This document shows, one piece after another, positions 3,422 through 63,894 of a stretch of 64,000 bases of DNA. Under the pieces are notes generated by a model. The model ran no database searches. It saw only the letters and a program-made list of their open reading frames with translations, and was not told where the DNA came from. Origin of the DNA: an uncultured Clostridia bacterium (GTDB taxonomy: Bacteria; Bacillota; Clostridia; Oscillospirales; Ruminococcaceae); NCBI GenBank assembly GCA_947629335.1, contig CANRDI010000006.1, positions 34,105 through 98,104 of the forward strand, in the 5' to 3' direction. The stretch's first letter is position 1. The number at the start of each line of letters is the position of its first letter. The position numbers were made by a program, and so were the translations under genes.

Positions 3422-4057
3422 CTATCTGAAATCATTTTCCGTTCTGTCAAGTATCCTTGTTCTCACAATTCTTGTTCCGAAAATTTTCCCGTACTCACGT
3501 TCAAATGCTCCTATCAGAAGCGCGGGATTTATGTTGAAATCGTTTCCCGCAGGCAGTCTGAGCATTATTTTATCTTTAACGTCTAAAGCATATATATACG
3601 GCTTTAAGTCTATCTGTGAGACACCTTTTTTTGTCTTTTTTTCGGTAATTATCGAAGTCCTTTCACAAAAATTACCGAATTTGTCATAATCAAAATTTCC
3701 TGTAATTTCATACTCGGCAAATGCTATATCCGTGTTTTTCATTTTCGGCTCTGCAACTTCAATTACGCGAATGTCAAACGGAAGCGCTTCGGACAGCCGT
3801 TTTGCTGTTTCATTATGCGGGATATCCTCCAAAAGCCGAAAATCGACCGCTTCGTGAAGTCCTTCTTGTCCGAGAGAAAGCGGAAGCATAAACTGTAGGT
3901 ATAATCTCGGACTTAATCCCTCGGTATACCAAACGTTCAGTCCCGATCTTCTCACCGCGCGCTGAAAAACGCCGTACAGATCGAGATGTGAAATAAACTT
4001 TGCGCGGTCGGTCTTGCTGAAAAACACGCGGGTATTTACTGTCGCCAAGTCCGTCAA
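3422..4057 (-). CDS. TIGR03936 family radical SAM-associated protein (DUF2344)
   Basis: FFSKTDRAKFISHLDLYGVFQRAVRRSGL...GLSPRLYLQFMLPLSLG; adjacent to its usual partner. Confidence 0.85.
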   Translation of the reverse strand: MTDLATVNTRVFFSKTDRAKFISHLDLYGVFQRAVRRSGLNVWYTEGLSPRLYLQFMLPLSLGQEGLHEAVDFRLLEDIPHNETAKRLSEALPFDIRVIEVAEPKMKNTDIAFAEYEITGNFDYDKFGNFCERTSIITEKKTKKGVSQIDLKPYIYALDVKDKIMLRLPAGNDFNINPALLIGAFEREYGKIFGTRIVRTRILDRTENDFR

Positions 4058-15677: not shown

Positions 15678-15706
15678 TTGACAATTTATTTCCTATGTGC
15701 TATAAT
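15678..15706 (+). promoter_or_regulatory. sigmaA-type promoter of rplJ-rplL
   Basis: TTGACA (15678-15683), 17-bp spacer, TATAAT (15701-15706). Confidence 0.75.
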
Positions 15707-15707
15707 A

Positions 15708-15868
15708 TCATTGCTGTTCTAAAGACAGCAGGTTGACGAATGGGTCTATAATGCGTTATGCGCCTGCCGAAGAATGGGAATATGTATATTAAAGGCTGTT
15801 ATGCGGTTAATAGAATTGTTCTCTCTTCTTGTCTTAAAACAAGAAGATTTTGTTTTTTTGACAGCAAA
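15708..15868 (+). ncRNA. ribosomal protein L10 leader with terminal attenuator-like hairpin
   Basis: About 160-nt leader before rplJ ending in TCTTCTTGTCTTAAAACAAGAAGATTTTGTTTTTTT. Confidence 0.7.
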
Positions 15869-39180: not shown

Positions 39181-39281
39181 ACTAACCCCCATTTATATAA
39201 ATCGTCAATATCCGCACAGCAGACCTTTGAAAAAGATCAATGTCAGCAAACGGCATAAAAGCCCATATTTAAAAGCATTTT

Positions 39282-39369
39282 ATAATTTGCCGATACGCAC
39301 GGAGTGAACGAAGAGAACGAATGTGCGAGGCATTGAAATCATATAATAATCACCCTGTGATTATTATAT
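39282..39369. repeat. intergenic repeat unit, copy 1
   Basis: 88 bp ataatttgccgatacgcacggagtg...ataatcaccctgtgattattatat; near-identical copy 107 bp downstream. Confidence 0.85.
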
Positions 39370-39388
39370 CATATCCGCAGGATATGAT

Positions 39389-39476
39389 ATAATTTGCCGA
39401 TACGCACGGAGTGAGCGAAGCGAACGAATGTGCGAGGCATTGAAATCATATAATAATCACCCTGTGATTATTATAT
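39389..39476. repeat. intergenic repeat unit, copy 2
   Basis: 88 bp, 2 mismatches to copy 1. Confidence 0.85.
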
Positions 39477-39734
39477 CTCAAAAAATATTTTTTGTCAATA
39501 AAACACATAGCCATATTTGTTTTTTTGTAAAATATTACAAATTCATAACAAATAGATTGTATAATAATCTTCATCTTTTCAACAATCCTCGGCTCGAATG
39601 TTGAACATTTGCTGAAAATATACAATGTACGGTAAAAATTAAATTACAAACCTCTTTAAAAAAATGCTCTTGACTATTTTATGATTTTATGATAGAATAT
39701 AATTGAACCGATTTTAATGAAGGAGTGTTTTAAA

Positions 39735-48865: not shown

Positions 48866-50485
48866 TTAATCGATTTTCCCGACAAATCGGTAGAAGATCT
48901 CGATTTCCTGTGTTCTACTGCCGTTCTCATCGTTCTCCGCTTGATGAACCACGATCTTGTCGATCAACTCGTTCAGCAGCGGCGCGGTGAGCTCCGTCAG
49001 TTCGGTGTACTTGCGGATAAGCGACAGCCATTTTTCTGCTCCGTCGGCATCCTGCGCCGATTTATCAAGCTTGGCTTGAAGTTCCTGCGTTTTGTTTTCA
49101 AGCTGCGTTTGTTCCTCTTGGTACTTCGCCGAGAGCATTGCGAAGTTGCGTTCGGTTATGGCTTCCTTTGCTCTGTCCTCGTACATCTTAGCGAACAAGT
49201 TATCCAACTCCTGCAGACGCTTTTCGATTTTCAACAGTTCCTTTTTGGCGCTTGCGTTTTCCTTTGCCCACTGCTTATCGCCGCATTTCAGCAACCGTTG
49301 AAGAAGCTCGCCATCGTTCTTTTCGTGCGCTTGAGATATCCAATATTGCAGTCTGCCGAGTACAACGGCGTATATCACATCATACCGAATATAGTGGCTC
49401 GAGCATTTATCCTTGCCGTATTCGCTATAGTTCGTACACATATAATATTGTCTTTCCCTTGACCTTGCGGTTGCATTTCTGCGCATATACCGCAATACCC
49501 GACCGCAGTCGGCGCACTTCAGAAGTCCCGCGAAAATTTGCGTTTCACCGCTTTTTTTAGGACGTTTTCGGCTTTCAATATGAGCGTGAGCCCGATCCCA
49601 GACATCCTTTGAAATAATAGGCTCGTGAGTATTTTCTACGGTATACCACTCGTCTTTTGGTCTGAGTACCTTTTTCTTATTCCTGAATGATATAGCGGTC
49701 TGCTTGTTGTGAACGCTGTTCCCGATGTACACTTCGCTTGAGAGGATCGCTTTGACAATAGCCGTTGACCATTGATGCCGTTTGTTTTCCGGCTGACCCT
49801 CGAAAACGTGAGCGAACGTTCCGTACTTTTGATAGTTCAGCCACGCGGGAGTCGGGATATGCTCATCGTCAAGCGTATGGCGGATTTTGGATGCTCCAAC
49901 CCCGTGCGCGGCGAGATCGAATATCTTTTCAACTATCCACCGCGCGTCCTCATCGGGAATGATTTTTCCCTTGATTTCGGGATGCCATTTGTAGCCTATC
50001 GGAGCGCATGGACTATAATACGCTCCGTTCAAAAAACGCGTTTTCATTGCCGCTTTGACCTTTTTGCTCGTCTGCCGTGCGTGCATTTCGTTGAGTATGT
50101 TCAGGAACGGCGCGATCTCGCTTTCGCCTTTCTCGCTGTCCACGCCGTCGCTGACCGCGATATATCTCACGCCCTTTGACGGGAAGTAAATGTCGGTATA
50201 TTGCCCCGTGAGAACATAATTTCTGCCGAGCCTTGACAGGTCTTTTGTGATAACGCAGTTGATTTTTCCGTCCTCGATATCATCGATCATGCGCTGAAAG
50301 CTCGGTCTGTCGAAATTTGTGCCGCTCCAGCCGTCGTCAACATACTCTCCGATAATGTTGAGATTTTGTTCTCTGCAATATTGAGTAAGCATATCACGCT
50401 GTGTGGATATGCTGCCGCTCTCGCCTTTCAGTTCGTCGTCGCGGCTAAGCCTCAGATAAAGTGCCGTGTTATATTGTTGTTTCAT
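48866..50485 (-). CDS. large serine recombinase (resolvase/recombinase/DUF4368)
   Basis: ALYLRLSRDDELKGESGSISTQRDML...ITKDLSRLGRNYVLTGQY; Cys cluster CADCGRVLRY; C-terminal ELIDKIVVHQAE. Confidence 0.92.
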   Translation of the reverse strand: MKQQYNTALYLRLSRDDELKGESGSISTQRDMLTQYCREQNLNIIGEYVDDGWSGTNFDRPSFQRMIDDIEDGKINCVITKDLSRLGRNYVLTGQYTDIYFPSKGVRYIAVSDGVDSEKGESEIAPFLNILNEMHARQTSKKVKAAMKTRFLNGAYYSPCAPIGYKWHPEIKGKIIPDEDARWIVEKIFDLAAHGVGASKIRHTLDDEHIPTPAWLNYQKYGTFAHVFEGQPENKRHQWSTAIVKAILSSEVYIGNSVHNKQTAISFRNKKKVLRPKDEWYTVENTHEPIISKDVWDRAHAHIESRKRPKKSGETQIFAGLLKCADCGRVLRYMRRNATARSRERQYYMCTNYSEYGKDKCSSHYIRYDVIYAVVLGRLQYWISQAHEKNDGELLQRLLKCGDKQWAKENASAKKELLKIEKRLQELDNLFAKMYEDRAKEAITERNFAMLSAKYQEEQTQLENKTQELQAKLDKSAQDADGAEKWLSLIRKYTELTELTAPLLNELIDKIVVHQAENDENGSRTQEIEIFYRFVGKID

Positions 50486-50588
50486 TAAATTAACCTCCTC
50501 GTTCCGAAACAACCCGCATTACAACACATTGCTTTCAACAACACTATACCATAATGCGGGCGTAATGTCCAGCGGTTTTTTGAGAAAA

Positions 50589-50840
50589 TTATCCCGCTGC
50601 TTGGGTGCGTTTCTCGTACCTGATCGCGCTTTCCACAAGGTCAAGAGCCGTCACCTTTGTTTCGGCAAAGTGTTCCTTGATTTTGATCCTCGTCTTGCCG
50701 CTGATGTAATATAACACGTTATCTATCACTGAAAATCCGTCTTTCACGGGTGTCGAATTTTCGATTCTTGCCTCGGCTCGTCTGCTGAAAAATAGCAGAC
50801 AGGACTTAAAAAATATTTTCATTCTGTTAAATTGGGTCAT
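50589..50840 (-). CDS. small element-encoded protein (TnpW-like)
   Basis: 83 aa; TPVKDGFSVIDNVLYYISGKTRIKIKEHFAETKVTALDLVESAIRYE; overlaps the upstream RHH gene by 4 bp. Confidence 0.4.
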   Translation of the reverse strand: MTQFNRMKIFFKSCLLFFSRRAEARIENSTPVKDGFSVIDNVLYYISGKTRIKIKEHFAETKVTALDLVESAIRYEKRTQAAG

Positions 50841-51325
50841 ATATCATCCTCCATAAAATCATAATCGTCTACTGTATATTTGTCAACAATTGTATCATCC
50901 GTGCTGCCCGTTGCGGATAATTTTTGCTCCGTGAACTCCCGATTATTTCTCGCGATCAAGTCATCAAGATTTATTTTTCCGCGCGTTCTGCGGACATTTC
51001 GGATCGCTTCTTTTCGATATTCCTCCATGATTTCGGGAGGAATATTTGCCAGCTCCGATAGTATCATGATGATCATCTCGACTTCGACAGCGTAACGGAA
51101 AAGCCCCTTTGAGATTTTTGTAACGCCCGCTTCGCTGCCCTTGACAATCTCTCCGGCAAGCTCCTTTGCGATGATATTTTTCTGCTTGCCAAGTTCAAGA
51201 TCGGAGACATATTTCTGAATTGCTGTCGCGATAAATTCAGAACGTGACCTTGAATGTTCCGCTGCATACTTGTCGCATAGCTGCAATGTTTCCTTGTCCA
51301 GACTGATACCTATTTTTTCTGCCAT
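50837..51325 (-). CDS. ribbon-helix-helix (CopG-like) protein of a mobile element
   Basis: IGISLDKETLQLCDKYAAEHSRSRSEFIATAIQKYV; start chosen at 51325. Confidence 0.75.
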   Translation of the reverse strand: MAEKIGISLDKETLQLCDKYAAEHSRSRSEFIATAIQKYVSDLELGKQKNIIAKELAGEIVKGSEAGVTKISKGLFRYAVEVEMIIMILSELANIPPEIMEEYRKEAIRNVRRTRGKINLDDLIARNNREFTEQKLSATGSTDDTIVDKYTVDDYDFMEDDI

Positions 51326-51723
51326 TGAACCTCCATTTCCTGCGGTATGACCTTTTTGTGTCACCGCATTTCCTATTGTTGTCGCGTTTACGGTGTTTTT
51401 TCTTTCGAAGTGACACCTATGTTTCATACTTTTGCTTTTCTTGACATCAAACTTCACCTCCTGCGAATGGCTCTACAATGCGGTCGGCTTTGCCGTCCGC
51501 TGTGATTGCAGCACCGCTGCTTTAACCTGCATCAGAATAATGCGCACCAATTTGCCCGAATTTGCCGTGAAATATCTGCGCTATCTGCTTGCAATTTGCT
51601 CTGAGAACCGCCATGCTCAAACTCGCGCAGAAACGGCTCAAATTTTGCTCCGAATCTGCTCGGCGAGGAGTTATTCTACTCTGCTGAAACCCTCTCTCAA
51701 ATCGGCGGAAATCCGCCCAAACA

Positions 51724-51868
51724 GCCGTCACTATTTTGGGGCAGTGCCGTCACTCTCGCAACAGCCGTCACTATCTGTAATTCGCATAGGTAAAGCGTTT
51801 GTAAGGTGCGGAGTGACGGCAGTGACGGCTATTTCTACCCACAGTTGACAGCTGTCACTGCTGTCACT
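51724..51868. repeat. iteron-like 9-mer cluster
   Basis: gccgtcact at 51724, 51746, 51764; agtgacggc at 51812, 51821; gctgtcact at 51851, 51860. Confidence 0.6.
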
Positions 51869-52825
51869 TTCACGGTCATATTTAAGAATTATAAACCGCT
51901 GTCCGCACGATCTTTTTATTTCAAAGGTCACGCCGAATGATTTCAGTTCGATTCCGTGCTGAACCAGATTTTGAGTGATCTTATTTGACGGAATCTCAAC
52001 GCCGAATTGCATTTTCAACTCGCCGACAAGCATTGTAGCCGAGCCTTTGAAATGTTTTTTCTCCAACATGAAATCGTGTATCATGAAAGAAAAATTATCG
52101 CGCGGCTTAGGCATTATTTTTTCCTCGGCAATCCAACGAGAGCCTTCGCGTTTCAAGTGCAGTTCCAGATTTTCGATATCGCGACCTACGCAATACAGAA
52201 TAACTTCGCCGCTGCCTCGCTGCTTTTCAATCATCACCATACTCCCGTCAACGCAGCCGCTAATTCCTGTCGTTCCGGATATCATGTTGAACGGATCGCT
52301 GTCGCGGCACTTGCGGGTATGATGAACCAACAAGATCGCGATTCGCAGTTTGTCCGCGAGATTTTTCAGCACGGAAAGTTCTTTATAGTCGGAAGCGTAA
52401 CTTGTATCATCGCCCGAACGGATTTTCTGCAAAGTATCGATGATGATTATTTTCAGATCCGGGTGCTGTAACTTGAAGTTCTCGATCTGCTTTTCGAGAA
52501 CACCACCGAGCGTTCCTGCCATAATAGCAAAGTGAAGATTCTCACTCGGCTCGCTTGTGAGTTCGAACAGTCTGTTCTGTATTCGAGTGTAGCTGTCCTC
52601 CAAGCAAAGGTAGAGCGCGGTGCCGCGTTTGGTTTCCCGTCCGAGTACCTTTTCTCCTTTCGCAATGCTGAGAGCCATATCCAGCGCAAGCCACGACTTT
52701 CCGACTTTTGGCGATCCCGCCAAGATGAACAGTCCCGTTGAGATCATTCCGTCAACACAGAATTCAATCGGCTTGAGCGGTGTGGTCATAAGTTGTTCGC
52801 AGTTTACTGTTTTGAGTTCGTTCAA
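51731..52825 (-). CDS. RepA-like AAA/RecA-fold ATPase (mobile-element replication helicase)
   Basis: LFILAGSPKVGKSWLALDMALSIAKGEKVLG Walker A; KIIIIDTLQKIR Walker B; ILLVHHTRK. Confidence 0.82.
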   Translation of the reverse strand: MNELKTVNCEQLMTTPLKPIEFCVDGMISTGLFILAGSPKVGKSWLALDMALSIAKGEKVLGRETKRGTALYLCLEDSYTRIQNRLFELTSEPSENLHFAIMAGTLGGVLEKQIENFKLQHPDLKIIIIDTLQKIRSGDDTSYASDYKELSVLKNLADKLRIAILLVHHTRKCRDSDPFNMISGTTGISGCVDGSMVMIEKQRGSGEVILYCVGRDIENLELHLKREGSRWIAEEKIMPKPRDNFSFMIHDFMLEKKHFKGSATMLVGELKMQFGVEIPSNKITQNLVQHGIELKSFGVTFEIKRSCGQRFIILKYDRESDSSDSCQLWVEIAVTAVTPHLTNALPMRITDSDGCCESDGTAPK

Positions 52826-53003
52826 TAACTTGCCCTCCTTTTAGATGTTAATTGGTGGTTAATAAAAATATATTAACATAGTTTTGCCAAAAATAAATAT
52901 GGAATGAAACTCGGCATTTTTCGCAAAGTTTCATTCCGGACATTTATATTTATTTGATAGATGGATTTTTATTCTAACATATTTCTTTTTATGGCTATCC
53001 CTT

Positions 53004-53876
53004 TTAATCATCAACCGTAAACGCCATCATAGAAATTATAAGACGGTCAAATAAAGAAGTAAAGTTACGTCTGCTAAAACGAAAGCAAAATTCTGCAAGA
53101 TAAGAGGAAAGATTTTTTTGAGGAAGCCCATGATAAGTTCCAAGAATAAATGCTTTCGCATTACTAATCATAATATGCAGCCAATGCAGAGCTTCACCTT
53201 TTGGAGTATATTTTACAGGCTCGTGAACAAAATCAGTCAGTGCAGGTCCAAAACTACGATAGCCATCACTTTTAATCGTACTGCCTTTTGCAATGTGTTT
53301 AACCGCAAATTCTTTCACTGACTTTTGTTTGATATCTTTTGTTGTTTTCATTTTCAAATATAGGGGACTTCCTTTGTTATCCAACGATAAAGCGACAAAA
53401 ACCTTTGCTTTTTCGGTTCCCCTTCCGCGCTTCTTACCTACCGTTGGTCCTCCGAAAAAAGCATCATCAAACTCAATAATACCCTTCAGCTGATGAGTAT
53501 CATCTCGATTTTCCATAGCTTTTCTGATGCGTGAAAGCATATACCATGCTGTTTTGTAGGTGACACTAATCTGGTATTGTAACTGCAATGCTGAAATTCC
53601 TCTTTTGTCATTAGAAACTAAGTACATTGCCATAAACCATTTTGTCAATGGAGCATGTGTGCGGTGCATAATGGTTCCCGCCGTCACACTTGCTTGATAT
53701 CGGCAGTTTGTACATTGATAACGACCGTTTGACATAGTATACGCATGTTTACATCCACATTTTGGACATACAAAACCTTGCGGCCAACGCATTTGAAATA
53801 AATACTCTCTGCATTTTTCTTCTGTTCCAAATCTCTCAAGAAATTCTTGTAGTGAGATTTTTCTCTTTTTTGCCAT
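53004..53876 (-). CDS. IS1595-family transposase
   Basis: CPKCGCKHAYTMSNGRYQCTNCRYQASVTAGTIMHRTHAPLTKWF zinc ribbon; EFDDAFFGG and SDGYRSF catalytic region. Confidence 0.92.
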   Translation of the reverse strand: MAKKRKISLQEFLERFGTEEKCREYLFQMRWPQGFVCPKCGCKHAYTMSNGRYQCTNCRYQASVTAGTIMHRTHAPLTKWFMAMYLVSNDKRGISALQLQYQISVTYKTAWYMLSRIRKAMENRDDTHQLKGIIEFDDAFFGGPTVGKKRGRGTEKAKVFVALSLDNKGSPLYLKMKTTKDIKQKSVKEFAVKHIAKGSTIKSDGYRSFGPALTDFVHEPVKYTPKGEALHWLHIMISNAKAFILGTYHGLPQKNLSSYLAEFCFRFSRRNFTSLFDRLIISMMAFTVDD

Positions 53877-53916
53877 TTTCTCTTCCCCTTTTTTTCTTTA
53901 TTATACTATTTTTGAT

Positions 53917-54011
53917 AGGTTTTGTAAAGATGATTTAAATAGGTTTTGTAAAGATGATTTAAATAGGTTTTGTAAAGATGATTTAAATAGGTTTTGTAAA
54001 GATGATTTAAA
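53917..54011. repeat. tandem 24-bp repeat, 4 units, inside the IS right end
   Basis: aggttttgtaaagatgatttaaat repeated in tandem; the last unit runs into the IR. Confidence 0.92.
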
Positions 54012-54506: not shown

Positions 54507-54884
54507 TTAATATATATTTTTGATCTTAACAATTGTATTATAGCGTATAACAACATCATACACCATGCCCTTATGCAACTTGGAGAACACTTCGTCAGTG
54601 CAATTTAAGGTGTGTGTAACCTTCTTGCCATTGTACACGAAATCAACCGTCTTATGCTCAAATGTTGCATAATTACTATTGTTAAATCGTGTGTAACTAA
54701 AGTTCAGCATTTCCCTCGAAGTTGTTCTTTTGTTTACAATTTTTACACGTCGGACATGCCCCTTATAGAATTTGCTGGAAATAAGGGGGATGAAAATAAC
54801 CAGAATCACAACCCCGAGAAAAACCCAACCTATACATTCAGTCAACGTATCGTTGGCGAGTTGAACATTTGTATTATCGCTCAC
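54507..54884 (-). CDS. small membrane protein cotranscribed with VWA protein
   Basis: GTG start (VSDNTNVQLANDTLTECIGWVFLGVVILVIFIPLI...) overlaps the VWA stop by 11 bp; one TM segment. Confidence 0.65.
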   Translation of the reverse strand: MSDNTNVQLANDTLTECIGWVFLGVVILVIFIPLISSKFYKGHVRRVKIVNKRTTSREMLNFSYTRFNNSNYATFEHKTVDFVYNGKKVTHTLNCTDEVFSKLHKGMVYDVVIRYNTIVKIKNIY

Positions 54885-57800
54885 GAACTTTGCCAGCCTC
54901 CATATCCAAAATCTTATTCCATGCATTGAGGAAGAAGAGATCACCTTCCTCGTTGATTCCCAAATACCAACTTTGCGTGTACGAACTGTCGTTCCCGTTC
55001 CTTGGAGGATATGTAATATAAAAGCTTGCGCTGGCGACACATTCTCCTGAAGAACTCTCTTTTAAAGCTATGCTTAAATTGTACGTTTCAGAACCCTGCT
55101 GAAGCAAGTCCAATATAAGAGAGGTAAACAAAAACCCATTAGCTTTGTTATAACCTTTATTTACGATGTCGCTTTTTATATCGTGTATCTTGTTACCAGC
55201 AGCGTCATATTGGATAAATTCATTTACAGGCACATCAGTTGTATTTAAGTTACCTGTCATTGCATTAACCCAATCGAAATTGTATTTGCTTTTTTTAAAT
55301 ATAGCAACGGTTTTATAGCTTCCTATAAGCCACTGACGCCCATCTGTAACATCCAAATAGGATATAGGGTAAATTTTTTCATCATATACAACAGACCCTA
55401 ACGGATTATATGTTCCCGCTTTTCTTAAGATAAAATCATCTTTATCCAATTTCGTTGGGTTTTCCGATATTGAAGCATAACCCATATATTCATGGTTTTG
55501 ATAATACGCATTTACATTACGGATATAGCCACAATTGGAACAACGATAACTAACTACTAATGATTCGCCTTCTGATTTTTGTTTTACCATATGATGGATA
55601 TTTACATCATCGGGATCGTATTCTCCATACAAGCATGGCGTTTCAACATCTATCTTTAAGAACTTGTGTGGATCATACTTATCCATAATTCCATCTTCGT
55701 CACTGTCTCCCTTAGTTGGATTACTGGTAACATCAAATCGGAATTTAAAAACCATATCTTGAATAGGTGTTGAAAGAGGAATTGATGTATCTCTGTAAAG
55801 TTTTCCAACTTCATCGCCATCAGATAGTCCATCTTTATCTGTATCACGGTCGTTTGGATCAAGGAAAACTAACGTACCATTGGGCATAGGTACGCCCGAT
55901 ATCTCAATGTCATCCGGAACACCATCATGATCCGAATCAGAGAAATAATCAAAATTGAGTTGATTATTTGCTGAAAGTTTATCATAAATCTGCTCTAACC
56001 CAGCAGATGTTTTTACAATAAAAAATTCACCGCCAGTTTCTGTAGCATATCCCGCTAACGCATCACTATCCGCACCCGCGCCCAAAGCAACAGTATGTAT
56101 CTTAATATCATTGTCTTTTGCTATCTTAATATTGGAGCTTGAAACATTGACATCACCATCAGACATTAAAATAATACTTTTATTGCCTACGGCTTCTTTA
56201 AGCTCGGCTAGTGCTATGCTGATTGCAGCATTTGCATTTGTACCACCATTGCTGTAGAATTTTGCTTTTTTTATCAGAAGATTTTTATCACTGGTCAGTG
56301 CACATATTTCCCTTGCGGAATAGTCAAAAGTAATGATACTTGTTTTATCCGTATCAAACATCGCATGCGCAAATTGTTGAACCGCCATATCTCGATAACA
56401 TGTGGTTATATAATCAAGAATATTGAAGTGAGGATCATTGCTGCTCATACTTCCCGAACAATCAACACATATGGATGTAATGGATGGCAGTTTACTCGAT
56501 AAATTTTCAAATCTTTCGTAAATTTTACGCCAATTATCAAACCACGCTTGCCTATTCACTACCATATACTTGCTAAAATGGGTAGTTACAACACTTACTG
56601 TCCCATTATCTGTGTCATATACGGTGTCAAGTTCATCAAACCTATTTTCTTCCTCATTATACCACAAAAAGAGCAGATTGTCAAATGGAATTTCACCGAG
56701 CTTATCCTTATCGATTTTGAAAGTAAGGGTAGCCTTGTCAAACTCGGAGGTTGTTTCGATCTCAAATGGCTCGCCGACAAGCCCTACAACGTCAGTGCAG
56801 AGAATGTCCGTATTCATAACGCTTTCGACAGAGGTGGTTCTGTTAATGTTGCCTGTACATTCCATATCAACAATAACCTCGGTTACGGCGCAGTCCTCGT
56901 TCTTTACCTTATGGGTAAATGTCTGCTGAATTTTCTCCTTGCTGTCGATAATACCATCACCGTCTGTATCCTGTACCAACGGATTTGTGCCAAGAACTAT
57001 CTCGTCGCCATCGTCCAAGCCATCGCCGTCCGTATCAACAATCAGAGGATCTGTCCCATATATATTAACTTCATCGCCATCTGACAGACCATCACCATCC
57101 GTATCCGCTATATGGGGATTTGTTTTGTTTTCAAATTCTTTAATATTAGATAAACCGTCTTGGTCAAAATCCTCGTCACCATCGTTAATCCCATTGTCGT
57201 CAGTATCGACATTTATGGGATCGGTATTTGTGTCTGAGATTTCAAAGCTATCACTTAATCCATCGTGATCTGTATCCACGTTATTAGGATCAGTGCCGAT
57301 ATACTCCTCAAGAAAATCTAACAATCCATCACCGTCTGAATCAGGTAGTTTTTCCCAATTATCAATATCTTCATATAAATCTGGCAGCCCGTTCTCGTTT
57401 TCATCTTTCATGTACTGCCATTCGTCCTTGGGAATATTAAGCGGCTCGGCAACAGTCCCGACAAAATCCGCCACATTTGTGCTGTAATTTGCGTTAACAT
57501 TCGGGCAGTCGAAAACAATGCTGTCAGCGATGATGACAACATTATTGAGATTGAGGTTCATCGCCTTGACCTCAACACTGCCGAACGGAGCGTACACCAA
57601 GCCGTTCAGATTAACATTGGTGCTGTCAATGACAATATCTCCGTACTTTGAGTAAATCACGGAGTCGTTTGTATTCTTAACCTCGCCGTTCAGCGTAACG
57701 TCTTTGAACGCTTTCAGAGCGGTGTTTATGTTTATATTTCCCGTAAGCTCCGCTTCACCGAGAATCTCGGTAGGCTCGCTGATGTTTATGTTAAGCTCGT

Positions 57801-58155
57801 CAAGAACATAGTCCTCGGTATGCTCCTCAACATTATTTCCAGAGAAGTACTTGGAATCGATCTTGTCAAAAATATAAATCATGTCAAGACCTGCGTTTTC
57901 GGTCTTAGTGCCGTTAATATTCATATTTCCGGCTGCTGAGATCGTACCGTTTGTTGCTACGTTTCCGTTCACGCCGAAGTTAGACGCGGTAGTAGTTATC
58001 GCACCCTCGGAAGATGAACCCGCAAACAGGGTGTAGGGGTAGCGCCCTAGTTCCTCTGCCATAGCGGGAATTGCGGGAAGCATGGTTATTGCCGTTGCCG
58101 CGGCTACAAAGCCGGATATAAGTCTTTTTGCCTTTCCTTTAAATTTTTCGTTCAT
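54874..58155 (-). CDS. secreted VWA-domain protein with TSP3-like DxDxDGLxD repeats
   Basis: Signal peptide (...AMAEELG); about 7 repeats such as DTDGDGLSDGDEVNIYGTDPLIV; VWA with DCSGSMSSND (MIDAS). Confidence 0.88.
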   Translation of the reverse strand: MNEKFKGKAKRLISGFVAAATAITMLPAIPAMAEELGRYPYTLFAGSSSEGAITTTASNFGVNGNVATNGTISAAGNMNINGTKTENAGLDMIYIFDKIDSKYFSGNNVEEHTEDYVLDELNINISEPTEILGEAELTGNININTALKAFKDVTLNGEVKNTNDSVIYSKYGDIVIDSTNVNLNGLVYAPFGSVEVKAMNLNLNNVVIIADSIVFDCPNVNANYSTNVADFVGTVAEPLNIPKDEWQYMKDENENGLPDLYEDIDNWEKLPDSDGDGLLDFLEEYIGTDPNNVDTDHDGLSDSFEISDTNTDPINVDTDDNGINDGDEDFDQDGLSNIKEFENKTNPHIADTDGDGLSDGDEVNIYGTDPLIVDTDGDGLDDGDEIVLGTNPLVQDTDGDGIIDSKEKIQQTFTHKVKNEDCAVTEVIVDMECTGNINRTTSVESVMNTDILCTDVVGLVGEPFEIETTSEFDKATLTFKIDKDKLGEIPFDNLLFLWYNEEENRFDELDTVYDTDNGTVSVVTTHFSKYMVVNRQAWFDNWRKIYERFENLSSKLPSITSICVDCSGSMSSNDPHFNILDYITTCYRDMAVQQFAHAMFDTDKTSIITFDYSAREICALTSDKNLLIKKAKFYSNGGTNANAAISIALAELKEAVGNKSIILMSDGDVNVSSSNIKIAKDNDIKIHTVALGAGADSDALAGYATETGGEFFIVKTSAGLEQIYDKLSANNQLNFDYFSDSDHDGVPDDIEISGVPMPNGTLVFLDPNDRDTDKDGLSDGDEVGKLYRDTSIPLSTPIQDMVFKFRFDVTSNPTKGDSDEDGIMDKYDPHKFLKIDVETPCLYGEYDPDDVNIHHMVKQKSEGESLVVSYRCSNCGYIRNVNAYYQNHEYMGYASISENPTKLDKDDFILRKAGTYNPLGSVVYDEKIYPISYLDVTDGRQWLIGSYKTVAIFKKSKYNFDWVNAMTGNLNTTDVPVNEFIQYDAAGNKIHDIKSDIVNKGYNKANGFLFTSLILDLLQQGSETYNLSIALKESSSGECVASASFYITYPPRNGNDSSYTQSWYLGINEEGDLFFLNAWNKILDMEAGKVRER

Positions 58156-58234
58156 GATATTTCCTCCACGTTTTTTGATTTGGAGCGATCGATCATCTCG
58201 ATCGCTCCATGCCGTTGTAATAAGTACCCGCGAA

Positions 58235-58285
58235 TTACCTGCGACGCTTCCAGAACCAGAAGATATCGAAATCACAGAGTATCAT
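58235..58285 (-). CDS. candidate small ORF MILCDFDIFWFWKRRR
   Basis: ATG at 58285, RBS gggagg 8-9 nt upstream, TAA at 58235; lies between a sigmaA-type promoter and the VWA gene. Confidence 0.4.
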   Translation of the reverse strand: MILCDFDIFWFWKRRR

Positions 58286-58328
58286 TCAAGTCACCTCCCG
58301 TTATAAAATGGAAATTGCCTATGCTTTT

Positions 58329-58357
58329 GTTATAGCATAGGCAATAAAATTTTTCAA
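58329..58357 (-). promoter_or_regulatory. promoter of smORF/VWA genes
   Basis: Reverse strand TTGAAA, 17 bp, TATAAC. Confidence 0.65.
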
Positions 58358-58365
58358 GGTGTTTC

Positions 58366-58398
58366 CGGTGAACGGTAGCTATTTGGCGGTTTTCGGTA
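58366..58398 (-). promoter_or_regulatory. predicted LytTR-regulator operator, VWA promoter
   Basis: Reverse strand TACCGAAAACCG-N9-TACCGTTCACCG, 21-bp period, just upstream of the -35. Confidence 0.6.
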
Positions 58399-58447
58399 AA
58401 TAAATCCCATTTTATGGAAATTATTTGCTAAAAATAATGTAATTCGT

Positions 58448-59743
58448 TTATATTATGTTTGGAATAATCAATTCAGCCTCAAAATGTGTGTCCGAGCACT
58501 TGTAAGTCAATGTACCGCCGTTTTTTTCGGCACATATTATAGCGTTTCCCGAACCGAAACCATGTTGTTCTTTATCTTGCTTATCGGTTTTCAAAATATT
58601 ATTTTCAATCTCTACCTTGCGCAAGACTGTGTTCTTTATTATGAAGAACAAGTTCTCGCCGAGCAGCTTAACGGAGATCTCCACGGATTTCTTTTCAGAA
58701 CTCTGCGCAGCAGTGAAGGCGTTGTCAAACAGGTTGTAAAATATTGTGCAAACATCTGTGTTATCCAAGCGTATCGAAGAAGGCAGCTTACCTATGATGT
58801 CAACCGAAACTTCGGAATGCTTATCCGCAACGTCCTTTAAAATCGCGCTTATAAGGTCATGCCCGATTTGCAATTCCGAACGTAATTCCAATATCGAAGC
58901 TCCGATCCTATTAAAATAGTTCTCCAATTCGTCAAACTTTTTCTTCTTGAGAAGAAGCCTCATACAATTCAAATGATTGTTTATATCGTGACGGAATTTT
59001 CGTGTTTCCTCCTCTTTTTGAAGTAACATCGTGTAATATTGCTCCTGACTTTTGACAAGCTTCTCGTTTATTTCCGAAATCCCTTTATAGTAATTCTTTG
59101 AAAAATAATTTGTCACCATAATAAATGCTGTCAAAATGAACACCGCGCTTCCCACACCAAGCGCAATAGCCATAGCTTTATCAGCTCCTTCGATTGTGTT
59201 ATCATTAAGCTGAAAAATTGTCATGAACGACAACAGGGATATCTCCCCAAGAATAATAAGTATCAGATATGGCTTACCAACCTTTATCGGAATAATGTCG
59301 TTTTTCTTTGATGAAAGTTTTCTCGCTGCCAAGCAGATTACCGCAATTACTGCTATATTTAACGCGTTTATAGATAACCGTCCGAAGGTATCATCGATCA
59401 CTCGTTCATATGTATCTCCGCTAATCGCAAGGAATACGGTCGCTGTCAGCATATCAAGCAAACTTATTCCAAAAAATCCGGTAAGGGTATATAATATTCT
59501 GTTTTCACCTTTCACTATGAGAATGGTGAGAACGATTCCGAGGTATGAATAGATCGGCACATAATCCTCAATTCCACTAACGACCGCCAGCACCAGAACC
59601 GCAGCAGAGCAAACGCTTATAATCACGGTTCTCTTTATAGGTTGTATTTCAAATTTAAACGCAAACAGCATTATCGGAATAAGTTTCATCAGTTCGACCG
59701 CATATCCGAGAAACGCTTGAAGCAATTTATTCATAACGTCCAT
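58448..59743 (-). CDS. GHKL sensor histidine kinase (AgrC-like)
   Basis: About 6 TM segments, FRHDINNHLNCMRLLLKKKKFDEL, CTIFYNLFDNAFTAA N-box. Confidence 0.87.
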   Translation of the reverse strand: MDVMNKLLQAFLGYAVELMKLIPIMLFAFKFEIQPIKRTVIISVCSAAVLVLAVVSGIEDYVPIYSYLGIVLTILIVKGENRILYTLTGFFGISLLDMLTATVFLAISGDTYERVIDDTFGRLSINALNIAVIAVICLAARKLSSKKNDIIPIKVGKPYLILIILGEISLLSFMTIFQLNDNTIEGADKAMAIALGVGSAVFILTAFIMVTNYFSKNYYKGISEINEKLVKSQEQYYTMLLQKEEETRKFRHDINNHLNCMRLLLKKKKFDELENYFNRIGASILELRSELQIGHDLISAILKDVADKHSEVSVDIIGKLPSSIRLDNTDVCTIFYNLFDNAFTAAQSSEKKSVEISVKLLGENLFFIIKNTVLRKVEIENNILKTDKQDKEQHGFGSGNAIICAEKNGGTLTYKCSDTHFEAELIIPNII

Positions 59744-60456
59744 TACATTATCCTCGCATACTTTCTGATATAGTCAAAAAATCCGTTTCTGAACGGAACA
59801 ACATTTCTCCGCGATATGTCCAAAGGCTGTTTAAACCCTTTCATGACAACTTGTCCATCCTTTGAAATATCCGAAACATACAGGTATGATACAATAAATG
59901 ATTTATGTATTTGATAAAAATGCTCGGAGCCGATCTGTTCCTTCCAATATTTAAGCGGCTTATCCGTATCATAAACTATTCCCGTTTTGCCATAGATATA
60001 AGTTCCATCGCCGTATGCTTCAAGATAAACAATATCGGTTAATTTAAGGTAGACAGTTTTCCCGTTTCTATCGGACAACAGGATATGTTCCGTATTCATT
60101 ATTTCCTTTTTGGCTTCGGAAAACGCTTCGTTAAATTTTTCGCTGTCAAGAGGCTTGTCAAGGAATCGAAACGCCTTCACCTTAAAAGCGTCCGGCATGA
60201 ATTCAGTGTGGCTTGTAAGAAAGATGATCATTCCGTCAAACCCGCGCTCGCGCAAAGTGAAAGCCGCGTTTATTCCGTTGATCCCTGTCATCTCGATATC
60301 CAAAAAAATCATATCGAATTCCAGTGGGGAGTTTAAAAGATCCTCACCGGAGATGTATTCGGATATCTCACACTGCTCGCTTTGTTCCTTGAGCTTCTTT
60401 ACCACATCATCGACAAAGATCTGCTCGTCGTCGCATACTGCTATTTTGTATGTCAT
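59743..60456 (-). CDS. LytTR-family response regulator
   Basis: AVCDDEQIFVDDVVKKL receiver; FYQIHKSFIVSYLYVSDISK LytTR domain. Confidence 0.92.
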   Translation of the reverse strand: MTYKIAVCDDEQIFVDDVVKKLKEQSEQCEISEYISGEDLLNSPLEFDMIFLDIEMTGINGINAAFTLRERGFDGMIIFLTSHTEFMPDAFKVKAFRFLDKPLDSEKFNEAFSEAKKEIMNTEHILLSDRNGKTVYLKLTDIVYLEAYGDGTYIYGKTGIVYDTDKPLKYWKEQIGSEHFYQIHKSFIVSYLYVSDISKDGQVVMKGFKQPLDISRRNVVPFRNGFFDYIRKYARIM

Positions 60457-61298: not shown

Positions 61299-61327
61299 TC
61301 ATTTGATAAAATTTGTAATATACAGTG

Positions 61328-61426
61328 CTTCAGCTTATTGGGCTTATAAAACTGTGTCTAATCTGCGCCGTTTCAACGAGCTTTGTTTGTTTTCCGAGCG
61401 CATTATTTTAGTTCGTCCAAACCTTG
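61328..61426 (-). pseudogene. decayed copy of the PBECR4-protein C-terminal tail
   Basis: QGLDELK*CARKTNKAR*NGAD*TQFYKPNKLK aligns with QGLEDLKERARKINEARKNGIDQTQNHKPNKPKH at 62207+. Confidence 0.7.
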
Positions 61427-61450
61427 GATAAGGCTCTTTTTCATAGGCTG

Positions 61451-61982
61451 CTAATACGAAAGCCTTTTTTCGAGAACTTGTTCAAGTTTTTTGAAATCAC
61501 AGCAGCGATGGGTGAGTCTTTTACTTTTTTCGGGAGTTTCTGTAATCATTTTATATAATTTGTTTGCTTTTCGTGTAATGATTTCTATATTGTCATTGCA
61601 CCAGTACAATTGATTGTTGAGTAAGTTTTTACGGAGCATTTCAGCTTTATTTTCATTTTTGTTTGGATTTACGTAAATTTGTTCAATTACACTTTTGTGT
61701 ACTGGTATCATATTATTAAAATTGAGTGCGCCAATCAAGTTACCATTTTTATCAACAATTTTAGAAAAATCAACATCATTTTTCATATATTTATGCTTTT
61801 ATTTTTGTCGATGTAGGCGGTATGCAGTATTCCTTATTATTAGTCATAACAATAATACCTACAAAAGGTCTGGTTTCTTTATGCTCTTGAGGTGAAACAG
61901 ACATAACCTTATCATCGACTTTAGCCAAATCTCTTATTTATTTAATATCAACTGTATAAAACTTTAGACCACTTTTTTGCAT
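61451..61982 (-). pseudogene. type III TA toxin ToxN/AbiQ family, inactivated
   Basis: MQKSGLKFYTVDIK*IRDLAKVDDKVMSVSPQEHKETRPFVGIIVMTNNKEYCIPPTSTKIK[frameshift]HKYMKNDVDFSKIVDKNGNLIGALNFNNMIPV...KRLTHRCCDFKKLEQVLEKRL. Confidence 0.75.
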
Positions 61983-62010
61983 TAAATTTTATTCCTTTCA
62001 AATTTGAAAG

Positions 62011-62030
62011 GGCTATGATTGTTCATAGCC
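62011..62030 (-). terminator. terminator-like hairpin between antitoxin RNA and toxN pseudogene
   Basis: GGCTATGAACAATCATAGCC on reverse strand. Confidence 0.6.
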
Positions 62031-62040
62031 CCTTCCTTTT

Positions 62041-62116
62041 AAAACTCCCACTCACAGTAGGGTCCACTGCTTTTAACAAAAACGAAAACCGTTTCCATAC
62101 ACGAGCATTTCTGCTC
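62041..62116 (-). ncRNA. degenerate type III antitoxin RNA (one repeat)
   Basis: Promoter TTGACA-N17-TATACT (62151-62123), GAGCAGAAATGCTC leader hairpin, one repeat AAAGCAGTGGACCCTACTGTGAGTGGGAGTTTTAA. Confidence 0.6.
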
Positions 62117-62188
62117 ACTCATAGTATAGCATAATCTAAAGGTTTTGTCAAGTGTTTTCCATAAATTTCTCAAAATTGAAAAGAAAAT

Positions 62189-62224
62189 GTGCTATATGTA
62201 GCACAATCAGTGTTTCGGCTTGTT
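62189..62224. repeat. direct repeat copy A
   Basis: gtgctatatgtagcacaatcagtgtttcggcttgt; same sequence near 63635-63669. Confidence 0.9.
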
Positions 62225-63313
62225 TGGTTTATGGTTCTGCGTCTGGTCTATGCCGTTTTTGCGAGCTTCGTTTATTTTCCGAGCGCGTTCTTTAAGATCT
62301 TCAAGACCTTGAGAAAATGATTTGGAAGAAGATGTTTCGGTATGTATCTGACTTGATTTTATATTTGCAACTGTATTTTTAACAAGTTCATTTTGCGTTA
62401 CATCAAATATTGACTTATTTTCAACCTTAGGCTTGAGCTCGGCATTTTCCTTTTCATTTACAATAATTGTTTTATTATTAGGGAGTTGTTTGTCGTAACT
62501 AACAAGAGCCTTGTAAAATTTTTTGTGTATTTTAGAATTGTATAAATGGTCTTTTATTCTTCCAAAAAAGTCCGAAACAGCTTGTCCAAACGTATAATGG
62601 GGTTTAGTTAGAACATCAACAAATTCATTTTGTCTATTTAATGATTTAAATCTGATAATTTTTATATTGCCTACATTTACCTCCGGTGGATCATATTTTG
62701 GGTGTTTATACAATATTTGTTGTTGCTCCCTCTCTTTGCTCAATGGTGTTATGGCTGCATATAATAGGGTATTGGGTGTATGACCTTTTGCAAAATCGTT
62801 TTCTATTTCCAAATTTCTTGAAAAAATAGATAACCCAAAATATTTATTATCAGCATTTCTATGTTTTTTCAGGACAAAATATATTGTTTTATTATCAGGT
62901 GCTTGTATTTTTAAAAGATAATCTCCCTTAATTTTTGAAAAGGGATTTGCGTTATTATTATATTTGAAAATGTTAATATTAGATTTTTTCAAAAAATCAT
63001 TTAACAAGCTACTTAGATTTGCAACTGCACTTATTCTATCTGCAATACCGTGTAGTTTATAATTTTCGCTTGTTTCTATATCTTTTTGAGTAATCTCTCC
63101 GTTTAACACACTATTTAGTGCTTTGGAGGAATTGGAAAGCTCATTTATCTTTGAAACATCTCTAAGATATTGAAATCCACATAAATGAAAAAAGTTATCT
63201 TCAAAAAAACGTAAGTTAATACTGCTACTTTTATTTTTATAGCCCAAAACAATGGTATATTCATAATTCTTAAGTTTTTGAAACTGTAAAGCCGCATCGT
63301 ATAATGTATCCAT
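62207..63313 (-). CDS. PBECR4-like (Barnase/EndoU/ColicinE5-D/RelE-type nuclease superfamily) domain protein
   Basis: INLRFFEDNFFHLCGFQYLRDVSKI...ENYKLHGIADRISAVANLSSLL...IKGDYLLKIQAPDNKTIYFVLKKH...NKYFGLSIFSR. Confidence 0.6.
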   Translation of the reverse strand: MDTLYDAALQFQKLKNYEYTIVLGYKNKSSSINLRFFEDNFFHLCGFQYLRDVSKINELSNSSKALNSVLNGEITQKDIETSENYKLHGIADRISAVANLSSLLNDFLKKSNINIFKYNNNANPFSKIKGDYLLKIQAPDNKTIYFVLKKHRNADNKYFGLSIFSRNLEIENDFAKGHTPNTLLYAAITPLSKEREQQQILYKHPKYDPPEVNVGNIKIIRFKSLNRQNEFVDVLTKPHYTFGQAVSDFFGRIKDHLYNSKIHKKFYKALVSYDKQLPNNKTIIVNEKENAELKPKVENKSIFDVTQNELVKNTVANIKSSQIHTETSSSKSFSQGLEDLKERARKINEARKNGIDQTQNHKPNKPKH

Positions 63314-63329
63314 CAAATTACCTCACAAT

Positions 63330-63360
63330 AAAAAAGCTCTGTATTAAACAGAGCTTTTTT
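63330..63360 (-). terminator. Rho-independent terminator (symmetrical)
   Basis: aaaaaagctctgtattaaacagagctttttt. Confidence 0.85.
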
Positions 63361-63550
63361 GCATATTTTCTTTTTCGATATAAAATCTAGCCAATTTGTG
63401 GTTTGATATGCAAACCCCCCTGGGAGCTCCACGGATCACCGCATATTGGCGCGACCACCCGCTTCATCACTCAGCGCAACACTCCCGCTTTCGCTTCGTT
63501 GTCCGCTCGACAGCTCCTGCCGTCTGTCAAACAGTATTATCACTGTTTCT
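63330..63550 (-). ncRNA. candidate structured RNA upstream of PBECR4-like gene
   Basis: Strong promoter at 63585-63557; hairpins AAACAGT/ACTGTTT and GGTTTG/CAAACC; ends in terminator 63330-63360. Confidence 0.55.
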
Positions 63551-63556
63551 AGTATT

Positions 63557-63585
63557 ATTATACGCGATTTATCTTCATTTGTCAA
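63557..63585 (-). promoter_or_regulatory. consensus sigmaA-type promoter
   Basis: Reverse strand TTGACA-N17-TATAAT. Confidence 0.8.
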
Positions 63586-63634: not shown

Positions 63635-63669
63635 GTGCTATATGTAGCACAATCAGTGTTTCGGCTTGT
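63635..63669. repeat. direct repeat copy B
   Basis: gtgctatatgtagcacaatcagtgtttcggcttgt. Confidence 0.9.
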
Positions 63670-63686
63670 AAACCTCCTAAACAAAG

Positions 63687-63712
63687 AAAGGCTACGGAAA
63701 CCCGTAGCCTTT
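63687..63712 (-). terminator. terminator after antitoxin-like repeat array
   Basis: aaaggctacggaaacccgtagccttt. Confidence 0.8.
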
Positions 63713-63718
63713 AGAATA

Positions 63719-63858
63719 ACTTCCACTTACGGTAGGACTCACCGCTCTTATGACTTCCACTCACAGTAGGACTCACTGCTCTTATGACTTCCACTTACGG
63801 TAGGACTCACCGCTCTTTACAGAAACGGAAACCGTTTCCATACGCGAGCATTTCTGCT
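63719..63858 (-). ncRNA. type III antitoxin-like RNA with three 34-nt tandem repeats, no adjacent toxin
   Basis: Units at 63719-63752, 63753-63786, 63787-63820; same leader hairpin as the 62.1 kb copy. Confidence 0.65.
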
Positions 63859-63865
63859 CACTTAA

Positions 63866-63894
63866 AGTATAGCATATTCTAAAAAAATTGTCAA
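63866..63894 (-). promoter_or_regulatory. promoter of repeat RNA
   Basis: Reverse strand TTGACA-N17-TATACT. Confidence 0.75.

Follow-up and report, generated by a model that had tools for sequence, protein, structure and literature searches.

The 64,000-nt window analysed here, from an uncultured Clostridia bacterium of the Ruminococcaceae (GenBank assembly GCA_947629335.1, contig CANRDI010000006.1), contains a minus-strand unit that, read from 63585 to 62207, consists of a promoter, a GC-rich RNA of about 220 nt, an intrinsic terminator, a ribosome-binding site (RBS) and an open reading frame (ORF) of 368 aa. The RNA belongs to the drum motif (Rfam RF02958) and the ORF encodes a PBECR4 protein (Pfam PF18813). 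The source genome has a single drum and a single PBECR4 gene, both at this locus. The initial annotation had named a promoter, a structured RNA, a terminator, an RBS and a PBECR4-like ORF, and all were confirmed on the minus strand, as follows.

63557–63585, minus strand: sigma-70 promoter, TTGACA-N17-TATAAT, matching the consensus at 12/12 positions
63473–63550, minus strand: 5′ part of the RNA, two hairpins including GACAGACGGCAGGAGCTGTC (from sequence, other loci and promoter distance)
63356–63472, minus strand: drum RNA core, RF02958 (Rfam match; covariation on 67 drums)
63472–63469/63427–63424, minus strand: drum P1, with kink turn (Rfam alignment, covariation on 67 drums)
63462–63451/63442–63431, minus strand: drum P2, 12 bp (same evidence)
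63450–63445 with 63395–63390, minus strand: drum pseudoknot, GCCAAT with ATTGGC (same evidence)
63329–63361, minus strand: intrinsic terminator separating RNA from gene
63321–63326, minus strand: RBS, GTGAGG, with the ATG 7 nt downstream (sequence)
62207–63313, minus strand: PBECR4 gene, 368 aa, ATG at 63313 (Pfam PF18813, E = 2e-21; model; alignment)

Perfect promoter sites of this kind are expected at about 0.01 per strand in the shuffled 64-kb window, yet seven are present. The transcript, starting near 63550 and ending with the terminator at 63329, is 222 nt long, and none of 200 dinucleotide shuffles gave an equally stable fold (z = −3.5). The segment 63472–63356 scores 73.4 bits against the drum model, for which the gathering cut-off is 43 (E = 7e-12). 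In an alignment of 67 drums, 90.5% of the pairs of the named structure are formed, and the covariation score of the whole structure is 0.418, compared with 0.203 for shuffled and 0.084–0.119 for slid structures; because P1, P2 and the last hairpin served to fit this alignment, those helices are biased towards the model.

The pseudoknot joins the loop of the P2 hairpin to a strand about 50 nt downstream. It is absent from the fitted model, and was first detected when a separate MAFFT alignment was analysed with RNAalifold. All six of its pairs vary on both sides somewhere among the 67 drums (for example CG 60/UA 7 and GC 58/AU 9). Compared with the common GCCGGT/ACCGGC, the GCCAAT/ATTGGC of the window keeps six pairs through two compensated changes. 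The pseudoknot is not seen in the minimum-energy fold of the window RNA alone, which is expected, since that method excludes pseudoknots. Folding of the drum kink turn has been demonstrated previously (PMC8191799).

In most drums a further hairpin, GACAGGCA-loop-TGTCTGTC, lies just past the likely start site, beyond the Rfam boundary. The 5′ part of the window RNA (63473–63550) is probably its counterpart; in the window, promoter and drum are about 50 nt further apart than usual. At another locus, L038, a second and very divergent drum (3487–3583, minus strand; 26 bits), with its own terminator, is situated just upstream of a good drum.

The ORF (63313–62207) scores 77.6 bits against PF18813, well above the Pfam gathering cut-off of 27. 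The model and alignment place the domain at about residues 1–200, followed by a helical and partly disordered C-terminal extension. Residues H43 and R90 are invariant in PBECR4. The compact form of PBECR4 (the Lachnospiraceae type, as at L100) was modelled at a pLDDT (predicted local distance difference test) of 93. Only two viral proteins, both unnamed, match the PBECR4 model well (BFVD), and phrog_3446, a distant phage family of unknown function, matches PBECR4 at 2e-7. Scans against Pfam and NCBIfam found PBECR4 only, with no match to the ToxN, CptN or TenpN families, and PADLOC gave no meaningful match for PBECR4 proteins.

Association of drum with PBECR4 across genomes

Pairing of the RNA with the gene was examined from the RNA side by scanning 85,488 GTDB genomes for the pattern GGGTTGTGC-N24-46-GAAAGAAAATG. 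The scan used no protein information and is a less biased test of pairing than a protein-side search. Matches were scored with a covariance model derived from 12 drums, in which true drums obtain 55–103 bits and non-drums are not reported. This yielded 69 true drums, mostly from Clostridia and several from Treponema, five of which are cut by a contig end. Among the 64 that can be judged, an intact PBECR4 gene lies directly downstream on the same strand in 36, a broken one in 20 and none in eight, so that 56/64 drums (87.5%) are paired with PBECR4 or its remnant. Drums without remaining PBECR4, most of them with a promoter or terminator, are present as orphan RNAs at L006/L075 (Pseudoflavonifractor), L037, L072, L074, L085 and L103.

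The surroundings of the RNA are conserved as well. A promoter matching at least 10/12 consensus positions precedes 60 of the 67 aligned drums, mostly 33–35 nt upstream (control at random places, 3%), and a perfect-stem terminator directly follows 50/67 (control, 5%). No neighbouring gene family recurs in more than three of 94 proteins from 24 loci; PBECR4 is therefore the sole consistent partner of drum.

Sampling from the protein side gives a similar picture. In an order-level sample of 298 genomes, drum is present in eight and PBECR4 in nine, and in six of these genomes the drum lies about 50–70 nt directly before PBECR4. A phylum-level sample added genomes G326 and G519, the latter with a drum at the Rfam cut-off. 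In all, eight intact chromosomal genes of the drum subfamily have a drum by Rfam or the covariance model (the window, G092, G099, G108, G127, G262, G326 and G519). Every intact drum-subfamily PBECR4 in the protein-side samples is preceded by a promoter, a structured RNA and a terminator; in G597 the RNA could be recognized as drum-like by eye only. All four Enterococcus and Streptococcus suis plasmid loci tested with Rfam have a drum ahead of PBECR4, and two further plasmid loci have the same arrangement by the covariance model. Neither the drum pattern nor drum-subfamily PBECR4 was found in viral contigs, and tblastn with this subfamily gave no match in phages.

In 28 of the 64 loci the toxin candidate is broken or absent and the drum fold is kept. 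Only scraps of the gene remain beside the drum at L028 and L097, at L073 a single toxin gene accompanies three drum units, and on an Enterococcus gallinarum plasmid the drum is intact at 73 bits beside an internally deleted toxin gene. Survival of the RNA beyond the toxin is what an antidote predicts.

PBECR4 genes preceded by tandem repeats

The PBECR4 gene of L013 gives no match to the drum-subfamily profile, and through it relatives were found on phages and plasmids. No drum was detected in the loci of this other subfamily that were read (at most 9.6 bits). Instead, two direct repeats spaced at 55 nt lie upstream of the gene on an Enterococcus faecium vanA plasmid (L139), an E. durans plasmid (L142) and in the streptococcal phage Javan100 (L136). 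Their copies are 95–97.5% identical over 40 nt (vanA plasmid 95%, Javan100 97.5%), against a maximum of 62% in shuffled sequence. In L. plantarum (L137) two repeats at 53 nt are 70% identical, and their stems show compensated changes (CTAGG/CCTAG vs GTGAG/CTCAC); in phage phi1605 (L135) repeat identity is just 62.5%, a weak case. A terminator-like hairpin with a T run separates the repeats from the gene in L137 and in L139/L142. Tandem repeats placed in this way correspond to the classical layout of type III loci.

The PBECR4 family is thus situated behind two kinds of RNA antitoxin-like element, drum in one subfamily and repeats of about 55 nt in the other. The two forms share the Pfam family and an RNA before the gene, with a terminator on the plasmids, but the RNA of the enterococcal plasmids and Javan100 consists of two tandem copies of a unit with two small hairpins, and is not a drum. 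Repeat-type PBECR4 apparently represents an unrecognized type III-like system that enterococcal plasmids commonly carry. The PBECR4 search matched 76 Enterococcus plasmid records, and the two such loci that were read, L139 and L142, both have the 55-nt repeats and the terminator. The PBECR4 gene of the vanA plasmid lies at 801–1349 of L139. No such tandem repeat was present upstream of PBECR4 in the lactococcal phages D4840 and phiLC3 (L140, L141); there the sequence ahead of the gene is folded but not clearly repetitive, and may represent a third type of RNA.

Proposed function of the drum–PBECR4 unit

Type III toxin–antitoxin systems are transcribed from a single promoter and comprise an antitoxin RNA in the form of a pseudoknotted repeat array, a terminator and a ToxN-, CptN- or TenpN-type endoribonuclease (PMC5086642, PMC8860590); the antitoxins themselves fold as pseudoknots (PMC5086642). 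The drum–PBECR4 unit resembles ToxIN, CptIN and TenpIN in combining a promoter, a pseudoknotted RNA, a terminator and a putative toxin gene in one operon, in its presence on plasmids and chromosomes, and in having decayed ToxIN units on both sides in the window. It differs in that PBECR4 matches neither the Pfam ToxN nor the NCBIfam TenpIN model, and in that drum is one structured core of about 115 nt without tandem repeats. Because it shares the layout and the pseudoknot but neither the repeats nor the toxin family, drum–PBECR4 is not filed here as a member of type III, though it probably works like one.

The closest mechanistic precedent is AbiF/RCd22 of Clostridioides difficile, in which the RNA antitoxin neutralizes the toxin by direct binding (PMC12373285). 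There too the RNA is a motif already catalogued (RF03085), situated ahead of the toxin gene with a promoter and terminator of its own, but the protein is Abi_2, related to Cas13, and the RNA consists of two short motifs. The window RNA is a member of drum by both score and structure, to which the present analysis adds a protein partner and the 5′ hairpin past the Rfam boundary. A literature search found no mention of PBECR4, and drum only in structure-prediction and kink-turn work without a partner or function; the original motif paper lay outside that search and may have remarked on the neighbouring gene. A 2025 study that handles type III systems with Rfam mentions neither drum nor PBECR4.

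Taken together, these data make it likely that drum and PBECR4 form a conserved, RNA-neutralized, type III-like toxin–antitoxin pair, in which a single large pseudoknotted RNA replaces the repeat array. The initial annotation had suggested an RNA-regulated PBECR4 toxin with a type III-like layout, and had looked to conservation of the RNA upstream of PBECR4 and to a lack of tandem repeats for support; the 56 paired drums recovered without protein information, and the repeat-free drum segment, now supply both. In such a system the promoter would yield abundant drum RNA of about 220 nt and the terminator would end most transcription, so that limited read-through gives PBECR4 mRNA and, judging from the layout, the RNA is in excess. 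Built by its kink-turn stem, long hairpin and loop-to-downstream pseudoknot, drum would bind and block the PBECR4 protein. A fall in drum level, for example through loss of the element or phage shut-off of host transcription, could then free PBECR4, which, probably as an RNase, would arrest growth. What the data show is the arrangement of the unit, its conservation and fold, the co-occurrence of RNA and gene, and the order in which they decay; that PBECR4 is toxic, acts as an RNase and binds the RNA directly, and what triggers its release, we infer.

Several points weigh against this interpretation. Since Foldseek with the confident PBECR4 model found no matching solved structure in the PDB (best E = 0.29), the nuclease or RNase label derives from the Pfam family name. 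No tandem repeats were found in the drum segment. The PBECR4 of L013 (1309–1468), from the repeat-type subfamily, appears to have no recognizable RNA in the 158 nt upstream, and at the chromosomal loci L016 and L021 a drum-like RNA is recognized only by eye. Finally, the genome scan demanded a well-kept drum, and an RNA that decays before its toxin could escape it.

Drum could instead be a cis-acting leader, an attenuator or riboswitch that tunes read-through into PBECR4 without binding the protein, as its position in the 5′ leader and the terminator between RNA and gene might suggest. This is unlikely: the terminators are not part of the conserved fold and their sequence varies from locus to locus, so that no shared switch is visible, the other PBECR4 subfamily has tandem repeats at the same place, and eight drums retain their fold without any PBECR4, most with a promoter or terminator, which is unexpected for a leader. 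It is quite unlikely that drum is a working cofactor or guide which forms an active defence ribonucleoprotein with PBECR4. The complexity and conservation of the RNA, with its kink turn, the strict pairing with PBECR4 and the presence of AbiH or AbiE-like genes beside some loci would all fit such a role, but a cofactor would be expected to decay jointly with its protein, whereas the RNA outlasts a broken or lost protein in the 28 loci described above. The suggestion in the initial annotation that the GC-rich segment is an origin of transfer (oriT) or other mobile-element end, placed before PBECR4 incidentally, is highly improbable and, no relaxase comparison having been made, found no support: although related loci are often on plasmids, and the window has a serine recombinase and an IS1595 transposase at a distance of 10–15 kb, the segment is an Rfam drum with a conserved promoter and terminator, a covarying pseudoknot and 87.5% pairing with PBECR4 or a remnant.

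If drum–PBECR4 is a toxin–antitoxin pair, the orphan drum family gains a partner and a first proposed function, and a widespread toxin family joins the type III-like systems. One toxin family would then be controllable by either a repeat array or a single large RNA. On balance, we lean towards regarding PBECR4 as a further type III toxin family with two RNA antitoxins, an array of about 55-nt repeats or a single drum, of which the drum form does without an array and without cleavage to monomers by the toxin. Enterococcal plasmids, a vanA plasmid among them, commonly carry PBECR4, and such a system could be relevant to plasmid stability and phage defence.

Flanking ToxIN units and other features of the window

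The initial annotation placed the locus between two type III antitoxin arrays. Both arrays are real, but the units are decayed: the toxin of the upstream unit is deleted and the ToxN of the downstream unit is broken, so that only the middle unit is intact. The features concerned are as follows.

63635–63894, minus strand: upstream orphan ToxI unit (promoter 63894–63866; terminator 63712–63687; then an RBS; toxin deleted)
61325–62151, minus strand: downstream decayed ToxIN unit (promoter 62151–62123; hairpin 62031–62010)
62210–62320, minus strand: 37-aa C-terminal tail of PBECR4, of which a decayed repeat follows the ToxN remnant

The upstream array consists of three 34-nt repeats (63817–63719). 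After the RBS of this unit, only a 35-nt 3′ end is left (63669–63635), identical to the 3′ end of the PBECR4 gene. Downstream, a single ToxI repeat (62074–62044) precedes a ToxN gene (PF13958; 61967–61469) broken by stops, and the tail remnant beyond it (61435–61325) is a decayed copy of the PBECR4 tail (62%). The tail shared with the ToxN remnant was not found in 148 other genomes of the family. The shared 3′ ends of the three units look like the result of exchange of RNA-plus-toxin cassettes ahead of a common end. A genome of the same family harbours an intact ToxIN whose 34-nt repeat is of the same kind.

Elsewhere in the window, a serine recombinase, an AAA_25/DnaB-like ATPase and an IS1595 transposase (48866–53876) are likely to be the remains of an integrated mobile element. 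A perfect 24-bp tandem repeat in four copies (53915–54011) adjoins the transposase gene, and a 107-bp direct repeat (1.8 copies, 97%) is situated at 39281–39477. At 54874–60456, the gene for a large VWA/TSP3-repeat protein adjoins those for a GHKL histidine kinase and a LytTR response regulator. A ribosomal protein L10 leader (RF00557), marginally over the cut-off, is present at 15701–15862.
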